A stretch of 64,000 nt of DNA, from assembly GCA_947561395.2 (NCBI GenBank), contig OX387188.1:40109942-40173941 (forward strand), given 5' to 3'. This document shows, piece by piece, positions 9,312 to 32,776 of this stretch (its first letter is position 1; each line of letters begins with the position of its first letter). Below the pieces are notes generated by a model. The model saw only the letters and a program-made list of their open reading frames with translations, did not search any database and was not told the DNA's origin. Both the position numbers and the translations under genes were made by a program. This stretch comes from Buxus sempervirens (taxonomy: Eukaryota; Streptophyta; Magnoliopsida; Buxales; Buxaceae).

Positions 9312-10309
9312 GGTGGCGTTTGGTGGGCATTATAGAATCTGGATTAGAATTCTAATCCTAGATTCTATAACCCAGATTATATTTCCTTGATTTTAGAAAA
9401 CCAAAATCCTATTTGGATAACTTGGATTGTGAACTCAAAGTTTTAAATTAGAATTTGGAATCTTGTTTGGTTGACACCGATTATTGAGATTAAATTTGGA
9501 GTTTCTTTTATTAAAAATTACATAAAAATAATATAATAAATATAGAAAAATTAAAGTCTTATTTAAAATCATATATATTATTACGTAATATGTATATTTT
9601 TATATAATATATAAATTTATATATAATATAATAATATTATTTATATTATGTGGAATACAATAACACTACTATTATTTAATAATATTATAATAATAATTTA
9701 TAATATTATAAATATTATAATATTATATAATAGTTATAATAGTATTATAATTTATAATATAATATTATAATAATAGAATATTATATATTATATTATAAAC
9801 TATATTATAATTTATAATATAAATTATATTATAATTTATTATAATATTTAATTTTATAATAATATAATTTATGTTTATTATAACTCAAAATTTATGTATA
9901 TTATATATAATATTATAAAAAATTTATTGTAATACTAAATTTAATAAAATATAATATATTATAATATTAAATTTGTTAAATATATTAATATATATTATTA
10001 TGTTAATATTAATATAATATTAAATTTGAATATTATTATAATATGTTTATTATAACAATATAATATTATTAATATTAATATGTTTAAAATATATTTATTA
10101 TAATAATATAATATTATTATAATAATACTATAATAAAATTTATGTTTATTATAACATAATTCTAATATAAGTTATATTATAATTTATAGAATATTATTAT
10201 ATTAAATATGATATATATATTATAATATTAATTTTATTACAATATATTATAATAAATTTATTATATTATAATATTATAATATGTATATTTTATTGTTTAA
10301 TTATATTTT

Positions 10310-10346
<37 letters not shown>

Positions 10347-10828
10347 TAATATGATTTTTGTTTATTATAACATAAATTCTAATACAAGTTATATTATAAT
10401 TTGTTATTATTATAATAATAATTAATTATAATGTACATTATATTGATATTTGTAATTTATTATATATATTAATATATAATATAATAATGATGATATTTAT
10501 ATTAATAATATTTATATTACATATAATATAATATAATATTGTATTATCTATTATATATCATTTGACAGAATATATTATATTATAATACTTATAATGTTAT
10601 TATTTATTATAATATGTTACACATAATCTCTAGAATCACAGATTTTGGAAATATAAGCACCAATGTCCATGATCCCTATAATCAGCAAAAAAGTAGATCC
10701 TGATTATGGATTTGATTATACAATCAGATAGTAGAATCCGCCTTAAAATCCCAACCATACACATCTTTTGGATTATGGAATCGGATTCTACCAGAATCCA
10801 GATTCTATAATGCCCAACAAACACCCCC
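9312..10828. mobile_element. 1.5-kb inverted-repeat element with an almost pure A+T core (MITE / Harbinger-like?)
   Basis: The ends are inverted repeats. The left starts GGTGGCGTTTGG and the right, read in reverse complement, starts GGGGGTGTTTGT; both continue with GGGCATTATAGAATCTGGAT. Between them, from about 9480 to 10620, the sequence is nearly all A and T, built from ATTATAATA-type words and a (TAA)n run near 10311-10343. No coding frame is present. The GGGTGTTTGG-like end and an imperfect flanking triplet (ATA left, TTA right) resemble Tourist/PIF-Harbinger non-autonomous elements, but the superfamily is inference. The low-complexity core may have grown by slippage after insertion. Confidence 0.65.
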
Positions 10829-13151: not shown

Positions 13152-15320
13152 TTTGGAGCTTCCATAGGATCATGCCATGTGTATTAAAAGAAAAAAACCG
13201 CCTAAATGATACAACTGTAAATTTTTTATTACACTTGGCACAATCGTATGAAAAGCTTCAAATAAGGGTGTAGATAGAGGCTAGCTTCGCAAGATGTGAA
13301 CCGGGGTGTGTTGCAGCATCTGTTACAAGTTGCCAAAAAAAAATTTAAAAAGAAAGATAATTCACCAGAGTATTCTTAAAAAGACCGGAGATAAAAGACT
13401 TTTAATTTAGAATGGTCCACACTCTTGAAGCTACTTCAGATTCAGAACAGTAAACATTGAACTTGTATATAAAAGGCAATAGACTGATAGAGATAAGATT
13501 GTGCCAGGCACGTACCTCTCACTTCATCCAAAGAAAGATGCAGGCTCTCCTTATTGAAGGAGACGTTTTCTTTAAAAGAAAAATGGAAAAAAAAAGTTTA
13601 TTTGGCCTCCAATTATTGATGGAATTTGTTTAAAAGGAAAATGTTCGTTTGTTTGAATACGATGGTACATTGAATGTGTACTATGTTTGACAAATAATTG
13701 TATTCTACTTATGTAGATCATTGAGAAAATTATACTTAATTACCTCCATTTCCGTTTCTGACAATCACAAATTCAAAATTTGAAATTTTTTTTTGGGGTG
13801 AATTTAACAATCTTCAAATACAAAAAATTCCAGACTTTTGAGACTTTAATTTATAATGAAAATAAAATTTTTAATGTGTAAAGATAGTAATAATCAATTT
13901 AAAAACCACTAGTGATTTAATCAAAAAAATTTTTATTGCTTTAAATAAAAAAACTAACAAGAGATAAAATGGCTAAATTACCACTTTTGTTGATGTTATA
14001 ACTCAAGGGAAGTTTGCGTCGTTTAAGAAGCAATAGGGGAAGAATTAATTTTCAGTTTTCAGAACCCAAAGAGAGGTGTAATTTGCTTTAAATCATTACA
14101 TTTTAAAAAAAAATTTACGAGACCATCCTTTGCGACAGGAAATCGTCTACAATTCTTGTTGTTTAAGTGGGATGCTTTCACGTGCAGCAATGACTATATC
14201 GCTTGTAATGATTATTGTTCTTACCGTGAGATGTCGACATACGACGCATGATAGAATCTCATGCCGGGCTGTAATCAGTTTTCCGGGGTGTCGGCACTTA
14301 GACACGTGATAGAATCTCACCCCGGGCTGTAATCAATTTTCATCTCTGTCATCTACGAGTTCAACATGAAACATGGCTCGATCTGATTGGTTATGATGTC
14401 ATAGAGTCTGTCAGCAGTCCCAAAAAGGCAAGCCAGAATCAAAATTTTTTGTTTGGCATCCGCCCCTCGCAAATCAATGAGCCAGCTGGTGGCGGCTCCT
14501 GGAAAGTGAAAACACGTGGCGATAATCCAGAACGAAGTTTGAGGTTGACGACGAGCCCACCTCACGCAGTTCGCCTGTCGCTGACATCGGCAAAACCGGA
14601 ACTACGCGTCGCATTGCGCCGGAAGGAGAACGTAGGGGACCACGCTGTACGTGTCGACCGTTGAGAGAACTCCTTACTCGCTCTCCATTACGTCACTCAT
14701 CGCATTCAAGGCCAAAAATACTCTGACAACTTTCCGACAATTACTACGCGGCTTTGGTTTGAACCGGATGGTAAAATATTTATGAGAGTTATATTCAGAA
14801 AATTATTACTGAAATAAATTAGAATATGGTAAAAAAAATTATATTCAGAAAATTATATTCAGAAAATTATTTACGTTTGGTATAGAGACAAAGAATATGG
14901 TAAAAAAAAAAGGAAAAAACTATATATTATTTTATGGAGAATTTATCACGTGGGGAAATATGAGCAGACGCGACTGAATATTATACAAAAATGGTAAAAC
15001 CGAAAAGGGAAGAGACAGAGAAGAAAATGATGCATCTTTAAAATATACATGAATAGAACAAATTTGACGAAAGAATTGGGGAACTGACAAGCATGGCAAG
15101 CATGTTTTAGTGGTTTGTAACTGCGTCATCTATCAGTATTGTTGAGTTGGTGGCCTAACATAAGATAAATTTTTATTATTTAAAACAACTCAATGGTTCA
15201 CATTCTTGGTTTTAAATACACATGGCATGATCTTGTGGATGCTATAAAGAAAAACGTAGATAAAAGCTCTATAGGTTCTTGACTGCTTTTTGTGCTCTTT
15301 CGAATCTTATCTTTCTAAAC
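13152..15320. other. Intergenic with short repeats
   Basis: No gene recognised. At about 14247-14341 the phrase GATAGAATCTCA followed by CGGGCTGTAATCA occurs twice in tandem, next to further GTGAGATG-like palindromic words. A plus-strand frame at 14449-14664 is open in a locally GC-richer stretch but has no known motif. Confidence 0.5.
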
Positions 15321-15518
15321 AACTGTGACCAATGGGCATCATCTACAATGCACGCGGTAGACAGCCCCTCACATGAATGGTGTGGGGCCTCCCAAATGAA
15401 TGGTGGGACGGCCCCCCTTCAACTGTGACCAATGGGCATCATCTACAGTGCACGCTGTAGACAGCCCCTCACATGAATGGTGTGGGGCCTGCCAAATGAA
15501 TGGTGGGGCGGCCCCCCC
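15321..15518. repeat. Two-copy tandem repeat, 100-bp period
   Basis: The unit beginning AACTGTGACCAATGGGCATC starts at 15321 and again at 15421. The copies differ at only a few positions. Each unit also contains the near-duplicate phrases ATGAATGGTGTGGGG and ATGAATGGTGGG. It is non-coding and far more GC-rich than its surroundings. Confidence 0.9.
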
Positions 15519-24299: not shown

Positions 24300-27200
24300 C
24301 AAACTGGGCCAACCAGATGATGTTGTAAAGAACTAAATAGCACAAGAACAAAATGAGTTCATGTGTAAAAAACCAATTCTTTGACCTCATTTTGGAAACT
24401 AATTTTTAAGGTTTTCTAATTCTTTTTAGTTAACATATAGAAAAATGAGTTCCAACGAAAAAGGATGTTTGGCTAACATTTAATGAAAATGAGTTCCTTC
24501 ATATTTTTCCTTTTCCCTCTTTTTTTTTCCATGAATAATTGTAAGAAAAGATTATGCATTGCAATGCAAAGCACACACTAGCTTTACAGAAGCACTGGAA
24601 TTATACAAGTATACATAGTACTTATCAAAGATATACGGATGGTATGTGCACAGTTTTTCTTATATGTTTACAGAAACTATAGTCAAGACAATATTAAACA
24701 CAATGTAACTGAAGATTATGAAATTTTCTTTTGCTTATTTTCCTGCCATTCTTCAGTTTTGGCTTTTATTTTTGCGTTGACACTCGCGTGAAACCCAGGA
24801 TATGGTTCATATCCACAGAACATCTGCAGAGCCTGAAGCAAACAACAATGGTTGTGCATCCACCTCAATCATCAAATCGGAGATTCTCAAATTTGAAAGG
24901 GCTGGAAAAAGTATACCTCAAGGATGATAAAAAACGGAGCCATTAGAAAGGATTGAAAGATGATGTCTAAAAGGGCTGGTACTCGTTTCTGCATAATTGT
25001 AGATGTGATACATGGGCATAATAGAGATGAGGATTTTACCCCCAAAACATTTTTTTTGATAAATAAGGAGGAATAGAGATGAGAAGCCAAGTAAAAGAGA
25101 AAATTAGTTACCTGAAAGACCCCATGGCCAATAAACTGTCCAGTCCAACACAGTAACTGAGCTGCCAGAACAACCTGAATATAGATGTAAGAATCACAAC
25201 TGTAGTTAACGATAGAATATTGCACACCTTTCATCACTTTACAATATCAAGAGAAAGGTTTGAATGTCAATTGGGCATTCAAAATCAGCGATAAAAAACA
25301 GAACATTACAGACTAACTAGGGTTCAATCAAGGATGACTTAAACACCTCACTAGAGTATATTATCAGAGTCAGAAGCTTGTGTTAGAGTGAATACATCAA
25401 AATCTCCATGAAACAAGTGAAATTTCTGCTCATTCTTCCAATCACAAAACAGTAAATAACTAGTTTCATGCCAATGTGCTCTAGGGTATCTTCTTGCATT
25501 AACTGGTCACAAAATAACAAAAAAAAAAAAAAAATGCTCCTATCTGACTAGTGTCATGCCAAGTTGCTTCATGATATCTTGCATTAATTAAACTAGTATG
25601 GGTTTGCAACTATTTGTCCCCAAACCTTTCTCAATTCATTTTTGCCTAGTAATGAGATCAATATGCACTCCCATCCAACAGAAATGGTCTTTTCTATGAC
25701 TTATGCTCTTTCAGAGTGTCTAGTATGCAAAATCAAACTATTACAGATGAATCAACCTAGCTTGGCCAGTTGATACTTGCTCTAATATACAACTAAGCAT
25801 GCAGCTCAACCATGGAAATTTTTGCCACTCATATGGCCCAAAGGGCTTATTTCTACTTCCTGCTGCTAATCCTCCTATATCATCCACCTGAAGGCAGAGG
25901 GGCACTCGTTGCCCCTCGTTATTTGAAGTCCATAGAACTTCAAAATTCCCTTGTGTTGAAGTGACATCAGATCTGGCAAGATTGGTCACATGACTTAAGT
26001 TACAAAATAACCATATTGTTACCTTACTTCACGTTCTTGGACCAAGGTAATAACATACCCTCATGTGCTTTCCCAGTAATATCCAAACTGAAATGCTCCA
26101 CAATCAGGCAGCATACTCAAATCACTACTAGAAAAAAAGCAGGTCAACTACATAATTTAGTTAACTGTCCAAGTTCTCATCACAAGCTTTCTCATTGGCT
26201 CATTCCCTTCCAATGGCAAAATTGGAAGACCAACCTCCAAATTGATCCGAAACTCCTCAAATGTTGGATAAAAATATTGCATTCCAGAAAGCTGATGAAC
26301 TCTTGCTTCTTTTTCCTTTTTCTAGTAAAGGATAAACTGTGATTCACACACACCAGTTTCAATCTGAAAATATAATAAGACTGATATCAGCATCATGACA
26401 CAATGATAATCTGGCATACGATAAATGGCCCTTTCATAACAGGCAAAGTCTCAAAGAGAAACTACTGGGAGAAAAAACATTCATGTGAAGGGAGGTGCTG
26501 TATATGTGATTTACATGTTGATGTGTATTTTCTGGTATAACATTGTTAGTTTAGCACGTTTACCCAGTGTCCTCTTTTGGTTGTTATAATCAAGTTTTAG
26601 GCCTCTGATTAGAGAGAGTTTCAAGACTCGAACAACTCAACTGTATTAGAAGATACTGCTCAGTGATGACCATGTTGGATGTAAAGGGATCATGTGTAAA
26701 ATCCGGTATCAGAAGCAAAGGAGAGATAGGAGACACGGTACAATGATAAAGAATATAGTAACCGGAAATACAAGATCATAAAACCATCCAGTTCAACAAA
26801 ATAGACAGAACTCACATCAGCTTTAGATCTGCCAGAAGGATCTATTCTGAGTGTATTTCTTAATAGTTTCCCTTTCATGTGGACCAAAAATTTTCAACAA
26901 ACAACATATAATGACAGAGACAGATACATGGCCGTTAATAATTTCACATAAAACAAAGGGCATAACTAACAAAATAAATGATAACTACAACTAAAAGGAT
27001 ACATTCAGTTTAAAATAATAACAACACTGGCATTAATTTTAGCAATGAAAGGAAAAGTAAGGGAATTACTTTTTTTTTTAATTGAAAAGGGAAAATGATT
27101 AAGCTATCTAAGACTGTTATTATTTCACAATCAAAAACTAAAGAAAGCAGATTTCATTAGCCTACGACAATTAATTACATCAATCAGAAACATGAGTAGG

Positions 27201-27504
27201 ACTAAAATTTCAGAACAAAGATACCCACTTCAATAAAGTAAGTAAAAATCTGTGTCTAATTGATGAAAAAAAAAATCTTTTGAAAGAAAGGGTAAGCAAT
27301 CTTACCTTCCAAGCCAAAGAAAACCCAAGTCGAACTGCAAGAGAACTTGCACCAACCCAACAGATAAAGCAGAGAAGGGCAGCCAAAGAACCTACTTTCT
27401 TGCAGTGGCAGAACCAGGACTCCAAATCCGGGGGAGCAAAATAATATATCAAATGACTTAATTGAAAAATAAATACTATATTAAAAATACTACATTACAA
27501 AGTA

Positions 27505-29736
27505 CTACAAAATCACCCTCCGTGATTGCATATTTTGATAATACTCTATAATGTCTTCATTGGGAATTTCACAAAAAACTTCTTTCTCAATGTATGTGAT
27601 CAAGCAATCATTAAGCCACTCGTCTCCCATTCGATTACGTAAACCGTTCTTGACAATCTTCATAGCTGAGAATGCTCTCTCTACTGTTGCAGTTGCAACT
27701 GGTAAAGTTAATGCTAATGTGATAAGTCTATAAATCAATGGATATACTAAATGATATCTTTCTGTAATCATTTTCTCAGCAAGGCCTGTAATCCCTTGAA
27801 CTGTTAAAAACAATTCATTAGAGCGCATATCAAGAATATAGTTCTCAAGCTGATTCCCAAGTGCCATAAGCTCTACAGCGGAGAAATCATTTGCATATAA
27901 CTGAGCAAGGTGGATCAATTTTTCTTTCTTAAAAGCAGCAAATGAGTTAAATGGACTTAGACATCCCACACAAAGAAGCAACTCCGTGGTGGTCTCCGAA
28001 AAACGATTATTGAGCTCTTGAAGTTGCATGTCTATGATGCTGTAAAATAACTCAACTTGATAGTAGTGCAAATTTGTCATTTCTTCAGCTCTTTGCTTTG
28101 AACGTCCACGAGCCTTAAACTTATCATCCATAGCAGGAACAACAATTTCAAGTTTATTACAAAAACAAGAAACCTCAATTAACAAAGAATCCCATCCTCC
28201 ATCTCTCATCATTTGCAACCTCAATTTGCATACCCGTACCAACCTCATAGCATTCTCAATATCCTGACTTTCCCTTTGCAATGCTTGTGACAGTTCATGA
28301 GTAACTCCAAGAATGTTTATCATGACATGCAAAGTGAAGATGAAATCAAAAGACTGCATAATATCCAACAAAACACTAGCATCAACTGACTGTGGATCAT
28401 TCACCCCATCTTCCATAACAATCTCAAGTACTTCAATTACAGAAGAATACATGGTCATGAGACGAATTAAAGAGGTGTAATGAGAGCTCCAACGAGTGTC
28501 ACCTGGTCTTTTCAAGTTAGAATTTTGATTCAAGCCCCTTCCACTAATTAACTCTCCAATTTGGAGTGCTTTAAGAACTTTGTCATGCTGGATGGCTTTG
28601 AGAGTATCACTCATCTTACAAGATGCTCTAACAGTATTCAAAATTCTTGAAACAAATTCAAAAAGTGATTTGACTTGGAAGTGGTTCTTTGCAACAGCTA
28701 CTAGAACCAATTGAAGTTTATGAGCAAAACAGTGCACATAAAAGGCAGATGGATTGTCCCTTAGGATAAGTGCTTTCAAGCCATTAAATTCACCTTGCAT
28801 ATTACTTGCCCTAGCATAGCCTTGACCACGTAATTTTGATATGCTCAACTGATGTTTAGCAAATAATTCCTCCAAAGCAAACTTAAGTGAAACAGCACTA
28901 GTGGAGGAAACATGCTGAATACCGATGAAACGCTCAATAACATGTCCATACTTGTCAACATATCTCAAAGCTACAGTCATTTGTTCCATGGTTGACACAT
29001 CACAAGCCTCATCAATTAAAACAGAGAAATAAGAATCACCCACATCCCTCATAATAGCATTCAAGGTTTTAGCTGCAGCAGCACGACAAATTTCCTTTTG
29101 CACCTTTGGTGAAGACATCTGCAACCTGTCAGAAGCATTAGCAAATGACACCCTCTTGACTTCTTCATTGTGATCAGCAAGGAAGTGGAAGAGTTCAAGA
29201 TAATTTCCTTGATTCAATGATTCTTCAGATTCATCATGACCACAGAATAGAAGACCTTGGCGCAAAATAAATCGAACACATTCAACAGCAGCAGTTAATA
29301 AAATTCGATATTCCATCTTATCCTTGGTGGTTTTACTAATGAATATTGAAGGAATACTTTGTGCTTGATTCATCAAATTCTCACATTTCCGCCTTGCTAG
29401 ATTGTGAGAACTATTGCACTTTCCAATATGAAAACCGATTCTTTCTTTTTTCTTCCAATTTTTGAATCCTTCATTCACAAAGGAATCGCCTGTGATTTAA
29501 GAACAAATAACTTCAGATTATGGTTTAAAGAGATAACAATACAAGCAGAAAACGGCATCTTTGACTACGTTATACTCAAGCCAAATAGAATACTCAATGA
29601 ACCAATCAGGATTGAACTTTCTATTGAATTTCCCAAATAATGTCATAGGGAAGTCATGAGCATGAGGTTGATATGGACCCTTTTGAAGGTAAGATCTTCG
29701 AACTTCGTCCCTAACATTAACATCATAGCTCCACCA
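27505..29736 (-). CDS. hAT transposase (TTF-type zinc finger, DUF4371, hAT C-terminal dimerisation), decayed
   Basis: The main open frame (29478-27505, about 657 residues) begins VNEGFKNWKKKERIG, has no true ATG at its head and is preceded in the same frame by TTF-type zinc-finger sequence (about 29736-29510: RRSYLQKGPYQPHAHDF, then FNPDWFIEYSIWLEYN and FCLYCYLFKP). Two in-frame stops separate the two parts. Then come DUF4371 (FSVLIDEACDVSTMEQMTVA), the RNase-H-like core (FYVHCFAHKLQLVLVAVAK, RPGDTRWSSHYTSL) and the C-terminal dimerisation region (LTLPVATATVERAFSAMKIV, MGDEWLNDCLITYIEKE). The usual GYDGASNMRG motif reads GYARASNMQG, so a conserved aspartate is lost. The protein is probably inactive in this copy. 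Confidence 0.85.
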
Positions 29737-29980
29737 TTTTATGTTTGGACAATTTTAGTATCTTTCCATCCCTTCCATCTCCTAATATGGATCGCACTAG
29801 GTAAATAGTAAATATCAAGTTTAAATGTAGCAAAAGTAAAAATTCATAAGGGCTTCCCATAAGTGAAGAAAGTGCAGTTTAAAATCAGTTTAAGATACTC
29901 TACGAAAACTAATCCAAGTACATAAGAAGAAAAAGAGTTAATTTAAAATCAGAAAAGTTCATTGATGGGACAACACTCAC

Positions 29981-30625
29981 CAAGGAAATTGGCCTCCACA
30001 TCAACCAGTCCAAGAATTAAATAATAGTACCATTTTGCCTGTGTGAAAATTACAAGAAGAGAGGGACTTTCAGTAAACCAACACAAGCACTTTTCCTCAA
30101 AGTCACAAGAAACAATACATAGGGAAATCAGAAAAATGGGATGTTAGCTAATCATTTATTTATCAAACTAAAGATTACAAGGAACTGGAATTGTAAGCAG
30201 GGTGACTTGCTCTATAACTACTCACCCACAAAACAAAATGAGAGCACACACAAACAAACACATACATGAATCTAAGAACTAAACAGGACAGGGCCCATGA
30301 TTACAAATTTTCAGGTAGGACAGAGCCAAAGGATAACATTAAATGCATAACAATGTATGGTAACTGATCCACACAATTTTTTGTAATTTTACACAAAGAA
30401 CTATTATACTGTTTGGCTGCTGAAACATATGTGTATAAAAGGATAATTAGAACAAAACATTCTAATAAACAAATAAAAAGACCAAAAAAAAGAAGAGGAA
30501 GAGAGAGAGATGCAAAGCATGAATCATAACCTTCAGTCCTTCTTTCCTGTAGATCAAAATGGATCCATAGACAATCGCCAATAGCACATAATTCGAAAAA
30601 GATTGTGACGTTGGTGCCTTGATTC
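29981..30625 (-). pseudogene. Captured SLC35F / DUF914 transporter gene fragment inside the hAT element
   Basis: Two exon-like segments are recognisable. 30625-30531 encodes GIKAPTSQSFSNYVLLAIVY then GSILIYRKEGLK; 30038-29981 encodes AKWYYYLILGLVDVEANFL. Together they match a contiguous part of the plant solute carrier 35 F (DUF914, nucleotide-sugar-transporter-like) family, in which GINAPTSQSFLxYVLLAIVY is followed by KWYYYxLLxxVDVEAN. Each exon has AG acceptor and GT donor consensus, and the 492-bp intron between them is retained, so the capture was at DNA level rather than from mRNA. No start, stop or further exons of that gene are present. It is a transduplicated fragment, not a functional transporter. 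Confidence 0.82.
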
Positions 30626-31213
30626 CTAAAATATTCAGAAACAAGATAAGAATTTTTGAATGGATCCAACACTGAAAAACAAATGTCAGATTACGCAAAG
30701 AAACAATATCATAGGTGTGTACGAAAGAACAAGAAGAAGAAGAAGAGAGGAGATTTAGAGAAATAGAGAGGGAGAGAGAGCAAGAAATCCATAAAACTCA
30801 CGACCCACAAAAGCAAAGCTGAAAGAAAAACAAAGAAGAAATATTATATGATGATGGAAACAAAAACAAGGATTCCAATATTAATATCAGGAGCTGAAGA
30901 CAAATTACAAAAAATGGAAATTTGACAAATGATGACTGGGAAATATACAGAGAACTCTTTTATAACCGTAATGAAACTAAAAATAAAATTGAAAAGAATG
31001 AATAACTTTAAAGAAAGAAGAAAACCAAGGAGACATTACAGAAGTTCCAATTGTCAGAATACAAGATCACAACAGAAAATATATAGAAAGAGAGAGAGAG
31101 GACATCTGGACATGAATAAACAAACTGAAATTCATTAAAACAGGGCTTAGCCCAACTGTAATGCAAGTTTCCCTTAGACACAACAGATAAAAAAAGGGAA
31201 ACACGCACAGAAG

Positions 31214-31565
31214 TGCAACCAGAATTCGTACAGCTCTTCCTTGGTGATTTTCTCTATTGTTTGATGTCTCCTCCTCGCGAGAGCGTCAAAGATCCCCACC
31301 GCGAACTCCTTAGAGTCCACCATTCCTGATCGGGAAAATATCACAAGCCGTGAATCAAGGAAATTAATCACAACAGCGGTTACAATTTCCAACTTAATTA
31401 GAAAAGGCTTTCGTTACGAACCTATACATTCTCCGAAATCTTCTCGCGAGAGCAGACCGTCATTTGCCAGCGACTTGAAGCGCGACTCTACACTTCTCCA
31501 GAGCTCATCCGCGTCTGAGTCGAGAGAGACGGAACCTAATTTGGAATTACAATTTAGGTTTGGCG
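31214..31565 (-). pseudogene. Captured RBOH (NADPH oxidase) N-terminal gene fragment inside the hAT element
   Basis: Two exon-like segments: about 31565-31422 (LWRSVESRFKSLANDGLLSR then EDFGECIG) and 31325 to about 31214 (MVDSKEFAVGIFDALARRRH, then ITKEELYEFWL). This is the EF-hand-like N-terminal region of plant respiratory burst oxidase homologues, where CIGM.DSKEFA..LFDALARRR is followed by KEEL.EFW. The 96-bp intron between ECIG and MVDSK has GT-AG ends and a phase that reconstitutes the glycine codon, so genomic DNA was captured. Homology stops abruptly after FWL, where RBOH would continue into QISDQSFD. The fragment lies directly behind the transposon terminus and is open in frame with the interrupted Mpo1-like exon. 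Confidence 0.85.
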
Positions 31566-31569
31566 CGCC

Positions 31570-31597
31570 GGGGGGGGGGGGGGGGGGGGGGGGGGGG
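31570..31597. repeat. 28-base G homopolymer
   Basis: An uninterrupted run of 28 G on the plus strand (C on the coding strand) lies between the transposon terminal region and the RBOH fragment. On the minus strand it encodes a polyproline stretch in the chimeric frame. Homopolymers of this length are error-prone in sequencing and mutate quickly, so the true length, and hence the reading frame, is uncertain. Confidence 0.85.
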
Positions 31598-31992
31598 TGT
31601 CCGCAAATAAAATTTAAGAGGGGCAAAATAGATATTGCATACAAAAGAATCCAAAAGTTTAGGGGAGGAGGGAATTGCCCCGTACGCACAACTGCACAAC
31701 GTCGTCCCGCGGCTTCCGCCACTGCTTTTTTGTCCAAACAGACATAAAAGAAGGCGTAAATCAAAGTGAAAAACAACCCAAAATCCGAAAGGAACCTAAA
31801 GTGATTCTCAGTCGGGATGAATTCAATGTGAGCGAGATCAAAAGGAAGAGTTACGAAGTGAAGCAGCACGAGAGCAGTGAAGAAGATTGGCCACACAAAC
31901 ATCATATGTATTAATATGTTCACTGGGTTGCTGCGATAAGCCCCATAGAAGGCAAAATGCTTCTCGAGACCAAGCAAACCATTCTTCCCCAT

Positions 31993-32571: not shown

Positions 32572-32776
32572 CAGTGGCGGAACCAGGATTCCAAATCTAA
32601 GGGGACAAAAAAAATTTTCAATTAATACTTCTCAAGAAATATAGAAATTTCAATGAGTTGGGGGGGGCAAATCAGAAATTTTAGAGGGGGCAAAACATAA
32701 ATTTTAATTGAAACATATAAAAAATATATATATTTTTAATTAAAAAATAAAAGCTTATAAGGTGGTTCCGCCACTG
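32572..32776. mobile_element. 205-bp non-autonomous hAT MITE
   Basis: Both ends carry the 14-bp inverted repeat CAGTGGCGGAACCA (start 32572; reverse complement ending 32776). The flanking 8 bp are CCAACCTT (left) and TCGACCTT (right), 6 of 8 matching, consistent with an aged hAT target duplication. The interior is non-coding with GGGGGCAAA-type words also seen near the ends of the 27403-31724 element, whose transposase may have mobilised it. Confidence 0.87.

Follow-up and report, generated by a model that had tools for sequence, protein, structure and literature searches.

Capture of host gene fragments by hAT transposons has been described in several systems. In grapevine, genic introns and exons have been captured beside transposase sequence by the hAT family Hatvine-6 (PMC2528002). 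Maize Ds elements carry gene fragments with introns, which was called rare for hATs in 2011 (PMC3260210). Pack-hATs have been catalogued in maize and rice, and maize Pack-TYPE elements often combine pieces of several loci (PMC8903248), while 208 of 370 animal Pack-TIRs belong to hAT (PMC8277862). Here we describe a locus at positions 27403 to 31724 of a 64,000-nucleotide stretch of the Buxus sempervirens genome (contig OX387188.1; this whole stretch is called the window below). It is very probably a non-autonomous hAT transposon in which duplicates of parts of two host genes, an SLC35F gene and an RBOH gene, now stand in place of the 5' half.

Like those of Hatvine-6, the copies of this family have the transposase and the ends in common, and the remainder is unique or found in few copies and often matches host introns and exons. 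Unlike Hatvine-6, with its 13-bp terminal inverted repeat (TIR) and 9-bp target-site duplication (TSD), the element has an 8-bp TSD, and the likeness is one of description (PMC2528002). With the maize elements Ds2-22 and Ds-l4-354 it shares the hAT background, gene fragments that keep their introns and a donor on another chromosome, but those are described with one donor gene each, in contrast to two donors and a 657-codon transposase remnant here (PMC3260210). Pack-hATs of maize and rice likewise have hAT ends, an 8-bp TSD and captured coding DNA, but the pipeline behind that catalogue calls any element with a transposase match of more than 250 bp autonomous, and one like the present element would go uncounted as Pack-TYPE (PMC8903248). 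Animal Pack-TIRs also hold genic DNA within hAT ends and are discussed in terms of template-switch models, with chimeric transcripts involving neighbouring genes on their side; their median duplicated size is 224 bp, as against ~1.8 kb in two pieces here (PMC8277862).

Gene capture of this sort by hATs is thus already described. The first-pass annotation of the window, which regarded it as less often reported for hATs, overstated its rarity, since gene fragments with introns beside transposase had been published (PMC2528002, PMC3260210) and Pack-hATs had been catalogued (PMC8903248). The element in the window is a well-documented and unusually complete further example: the sequence can be read at both genes that resemble the donors, in a second, independent carrier, across the joins and at the empty target site, and the order of events in hAT gene capture can therefore be laid out. 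Pipelines that set aside elements with transposase similarity have a blind spot here and would miss such carriers.

Structure of the element and probable origin of its cargo

The interval 27403-31724 is one hAT element with both ends, and Pfam domains of hAT, SLC35F and RBOH proteins are found inside it. The ends read CAGTGGC(A/G)GAA, with 10 of 11 bases matching between CAGTGGCAGAA and CAGTGGCGGAA. A single element with TIRs and an 8-bp TSD matching at seven of eight positions, enclosing RBOH and SLC35F fragments with GT-AG introns and all pieces in one orientation, had been proposed before, and all of this is borne out by the features listed below: every hAT, SLC35F and RBOH feature lies on the minus strand, and GT-AG borders are seen at the RBOH intron and around both SLC35F exons.

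27395..27402, no strand: left TSD CTTTCTTG, matching the right copy at 7 of 8 positions
27403..27413, plus strand: left TIR CAGTGGCAGAA, read together with the left ends of 22 family copies
27403..29733, minus strand: hAT transposase half, 93-95% identical to ~20 near-complete matches in the same genome; ~46 N-terminal residues absent, two in-frame stops
27505..29478, minus strand: 657-codon open frame with DUF4371 and the hAT C-terminal dimerisation domain (Pfam)
29730..29733, no strand: hAT/SLC35F join, TCCA common to both sequences, in the window carrier only of the two carriers
29734..31212, minus strand: SLC35F fragment resembling C22:14171085-14172969; it begins just within intron 1 and stops in intron 3
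29981..30038, minus strand: SLC35F exon 3 (AKWYYYLILGLVDVEANFL), AG before and GT after; the same exon is present at the C22 locus
30531..30625, minus strand: SLC35F exon 2 (IKAPTSQSFSNYVLLAIVYGSILIYRKEGLK), AG before and GT after; Pfam SLC35F, E=5e-7
31214..31519, minus strand: RBOH fragment, like C11:43824461-43824770, with the end of exon 1, the whole intron and part of exon 2
31326..31421, minus strand: RBOH intron, GT...AG, borders read in the sequence
31520..31724, minus strand: hAT element 5' end, including a 28-G run at 31570-31597; 72% identical over 127 bases to a C14 copy and 68% over 205 bases to a C4 right end
31714..31724, minus strand: right TIR CAGTGGCGGAA (minus-strand reading), 10 of 11 bases as in the left end
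31725..31732, no strand: right TSD CTTTTTTG, matching the left copy at 7 of 8 positions

A 17-base left-end pattern, allowing up to three mismatches, has four matches in the window against 0.19 expected, and none of 100 shuffles reached four; the right end of the element is absent from these matches because it departs from the pattern past 11 bases. In the 657-codon frame, Pfam identified DUF4371 (E=1e-71) and Dimer_Tnp_hAT (PF05699, E=1.4e-8, above cut-off). This dimerisation domain, the short inverted ends and the 8-bp TSD, which is perfect in the relatives on C1 and C21, are the features of the hAT superfamily. NADPH_Ox was matched in the two consecutive RBOH exons (profile positions 23-56, E=3e-8, and 56-93, E=1.5e-13). 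For the second of these exons there is also a match among solved structures, chain 3a8r (E=7e-4), which is labelled 'putative uncharacterized protein' in its entry and which we take to be a rice RBOH domain. The best protein matches come from flowering plants (Tetracentron 71%, Nelumbo 62%), and that of the transposase remnant is a TTF-type plant protein with 64% identity. Rfam gave no matches at gathering thresholds.

Homology searches were run over the genome assembly (676.5 Mb). The RBOH fragment agrees with C11:43824461-43824770 at 302 of 314 positions, intron included, plus a 4-base length difference. The N-terminal exon at this C11 locus is 71.5% identical to a protein with an RBOH domain, and it is followed 1.5-4 kb further on by what we take to be oxidase-exon-like stretches. 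The SLC35F fragment is 97% identical to C22:14171085-14171785 and 95% identical to C22:14172191-14172969, again including introns, and exons 1 and 4 of this locus presumably lie outside the copied part. The copy begins a few bases into intron 1 and breaks off within intron 3, so that it carries two whole exons and their splice sites. Missing parental loci with matching introns had been named beforehand as grounds for giving up the capture; such loci were found for both genes, SLC35F on C22 and RBOH on C11. They are the likely donors of the cargo, and their matching introns support the earlier proposal that the pieces were taken from genomic DNA and not from spliced RNA.

A second carrier and the order of events

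A second carrier lies at C11:40986895-40991257 and has transposase half, SLC35F, RBOH and hAT 5'-like sequence in the same order. Its transposase half has an internal deletion of its own and its SLC35F piece is longer than that in the window; the RBOH piece and both RBOH borders are the same. In the two carriers, the cargo consists of ~1.5-1.7 kb of SLC35F and 306 bp of RBOH with introns kept, in transposase orientation, and is 97.7% identical over 1810 bases. The flanks of the C11 carrier differ from those in the window, and its left end is decayed.

This carrier also bears on whether the RBOH and SLC35F pieces might be separate nested insertions or the region misassembled. The 28-G run is a spot where sequencing can fail, which would favour such an explanation, but the C11 copy repeats the same SLC35F/RBOH join, which argues against misassembly, and the same outer RBOH border between other flanks, and hAT-end-like sequence lies beyond the RBOH piece in both carriers. 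We regard nested insertion or misassembly as very improbable.

The SLC35F sequences of the C22 locus, the window and the C11 carrier were compared at 1469 ungapped sites, omitting 24 gapped columns and a 405-base C22 stretch absent from the carriers. Private changes numbered 30 in C22, 16 in the window and 11 in the C11 carrier. Thus, the alignment to the parental loci that had been suggested for dating the event makes the capture look older than the divergence of the two carriers. The omitted stretch of the C22 locus (L032 4287-4691, ~405 bp of intron) could be an insertion into the gene or an early loss from the cargo.

At the outer border of the C11 carrier, TTCAATGTC is common to hAT and SLC35F, slightly altered there, and this border looks like the original outer join. 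The TCCA join of the window carrier would then be a later one that removed the transposase start. At the SLC35F/RBOH join, one extra G stands between the pieces. For a hAT element with host gene pieces in place of its 5' half, the cargo could have been acquired through template switching while a break or a stalled fork in the element was being repaired. Short matching stretches at the joins would help such a gain, and they would fit template switching as well as end joining in gap repair. Transposition may have been provided in trans by relatives that still code for a long transposase.

Several observations weigh against this interpretation. The recommended genome search for copies with the same ends and fragments produced the C11 carrier with its cargo but not the right end of that carrier: in the 3.2 kb past the cargo no right end was recognisable, and none of three 7-base near matches has a matching duplication. 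Therefore, we infer movement of the whole element from the unlike flanks and not from two complete copies. Comparison of carriers and donors revealed no clear shared stretch at the SLC35F/RBOH join. The direction of copying, from gene to transposon, we likewise infer, since the donor stretches lie within complete genes. Finally, 88 of ~1966 positions distinguish the transposase halves of the two carriers, against 27 of 1480 for the SLC35F cargo (p=1e-5), which exceeds the expectation for a simple shared ancestor.

The latter difference would be explained if the cargo had been captured once and later moved between hAT lineages by template switching, so that the window transposase half came from another lineage than that of C11. 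We consider this unlikely. It would fit the silent transitions (30 of 634 in the transposase halves and 17 of 1480 in the cargo, p=2e-6), the 11 differences in the left 105 non-coding bases and the window carrier's own hAT/SLC35F join at TCCA. In neither free tree, one of them with 23 copies, are the two carriers paired, and with FastTree the C14 copy L015 falls next to the C11 carrier (support 0.898). But the tree that pairs the carriers is not rejected (p-AU 0.218), and 17 sites depart from the family majority alike in both. Transposase and cargo differ in transitions (75 versus 17), with transitions at 36 of 1223 non-degenerate sites between the transposase halves (p=0.001), while transversions are equal (13 versus 10, p=1.0); none of 12 other copies compared is separated from the window copy by fewer than 13 transversions. 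Fourfold sites alone give 8 of 215 (p=0.07). Such a pattern could arise if the repeated transposase half decays faster by C-to-T change (CG-context C-to-T changes in the window copy, 7 of 56), and for the excess transitions this is favoured over cargo transfer. Substitution rates by themselves (dS 0.088, dN/dS 0.35 for the pair of carriers) at first made a strong case for transfer, which was undone by the fourfold sites, the equal transversions and the AU test; transfer was kept as an alternative.

The transposase remnant and its relatives

Compared with the C1 copy, which encodes 788 residues, homology of the window transposase starts at about residue 47 (family nt 2331), so that ~46 of 788 residues are gone. 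Two in-frame stops correspond to C1 codons 118 and 125, and the last 657 codons are open. As read from the sequence, the window copy's transposase is not a working gene, and the 657-codon frame is its C-terminal part. The statement of the first-pass annotation that the element keeps its transposase frame does not hold; an intact transposase is ruled out by the absent start and the two in-frame stops. Splicing of SLC35F exon 3 onto a transposase exon, in phase at first look, was dismissed as well, since the frame of the C1 relative continues across that AG.

The element resembles Pack-TYPE elements in that host coding DNA was captured between TIRs from donor loci elsewhere, and in being non-autonomous, with the transposase start lost and two in-frame stops. 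The packFinder rule allows no transposase match longer than 250 bp, and 2331 bp of transposase half remain. Therefore, the element is filed as a hAT with transduplicated fragments and not as Pack-TYPE by that rule.

With 40 of 490 candidates scored, a genome search with the left 2331 bases of the element gave at least 48 matches, and 30 loci were fetched; family counts are therefore lower bounds. Complete relatives on C1 (5486 bp) and C21 (5447 bp) are 98.7% alike and have perfect 8-bp TSDs. A frame of at least 780 codons is present in two of 29 distinct copies, on C1 (788 codons) and C15 (784 codons), counted from 31 loci as fetched, three of which are the same C11 copy and some of which hold partial copies.

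The copies share the transposase half and differ in the 5' half, a combination of common transposase and ends with a variable remainder containing host introns and exons that is of the Hatvine-6 kind. In 19 copies, the family match ends at nt 2574-2576; 12 continue as 5'-half sequence A, two as B and four as C, and one leaves sequence C after 54 bases. Sequence C, which includes the C11 carrier, is probably the original one. The copies on C1, C21 and C19 and one C12 copy have yet another 5' half. A group C copy at 15.10 Mb on C3 (L028, C3:15098554-15103057) departs after ~122 bases, and among solved structures its 5' half matches a photosystem II D1 protease-like peptide (1fc6, E=6e-4) in transposase orientation. 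In Pfam, eight chosen stop-to-stop frames from the 5' halves of other copies, the D1-protease-like one included, gave no family above cut-off. That the 5' half serves this hAT family as a place of exchange, where the once-captured SLC35F and RBOH pieces passed between lineages and gave cargo and transposase separate histories, seems to us on balance rather improbable.

Group A 5'-half sequence also occurs on C6 (L047) and C3 (L048), 92-95% identical, with no transposase in the 3.0 and 3.2 kb read there, and group B sequence is present at several places in the genome. C4 has two hAT ends 20.4 kb apart, a left one at 17889612 and a right one at ~17909993 (L025, L043), with the common flanks CTTCTGAT / CTTCTAAT; C4:17889612-17909993 would be either a very long 20.4-kb element or nested insertions.

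The interrupted MPO1-like gene and neighbouring sequences

The element has inserted into coding exon 1 of an MPO1-like gene on the minus strand, a position that had gone unremarked in the first annotation. The features concerned are:

24719..31992, minus strand: interrupted MPO1-like (DUF962) gene; 31992-31725 and 27402-27297 are the two parts of exon 1, and the later exons fall within 25177-24719
31174..31992, minus strand: in-frame chain of MPO1-like exon 1, hAT end and RBOH exons 1 and 2, which would be 240 codons long provided that the RBOH intron is removed by splicing

Removal of the element and one duplication in silico yields a 122-codon open frame, the last few codons lying beyond the exon, that matches plant MPO1-like (DUF962) proteins. 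The reconstructed empty site restores the MPO1-like frame, and the element therefore interrupts exon 1. A second MPO1-like locus on C6 has an uninterrupted exon 1 (286 of 361 positions identical). The insertion would inactivate the copy in the window or make its product chimeric.

From the MPO1-like start codon, 571 bases are open in one frame through the hAT end and the G run (nine prolines) into RBOH exon 1, and by sequence reading RBOH exon 2 would extend this frame in phase to 240 codons if the intron were spliced. Both features would suit a working new gene that joins an MPO1-like N-terminus to the EF-hand-side region of RBOH. But the frame hinges on the exact length of a 28-base homopolymer and terminates within captured intron sequence, and the RBOH portion comprises ~70 residues. 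Furthermore, none of 112 protein matches of the 192-residue fused frame (265 candidates scored) has both Pfam domains together, and its sole solved-structure match (E=0.008) tracks the proline run. We give such a gene hardly any credence. The G run of the C14 relative is shorter than the 28 bases at 31570-31597.

Upstream of the interrupted gene, a 205-bp hAT miniature inverted-repeat transposable element at 32572-32776 has the same ends (CAGTGGCGGAACCAGGA ... GTGGTTCCGCCACTG), and its flanking 8-mers CCAACCTT / TCGACCTT match at six of eight positions. Elsewhere in the window, positions 9508-10587 hold ~1 kb of degenerate AT-only repeats, and at 15320-15517 a 100-bp unit occurs twice in tandem, the two copies being 95% alike.

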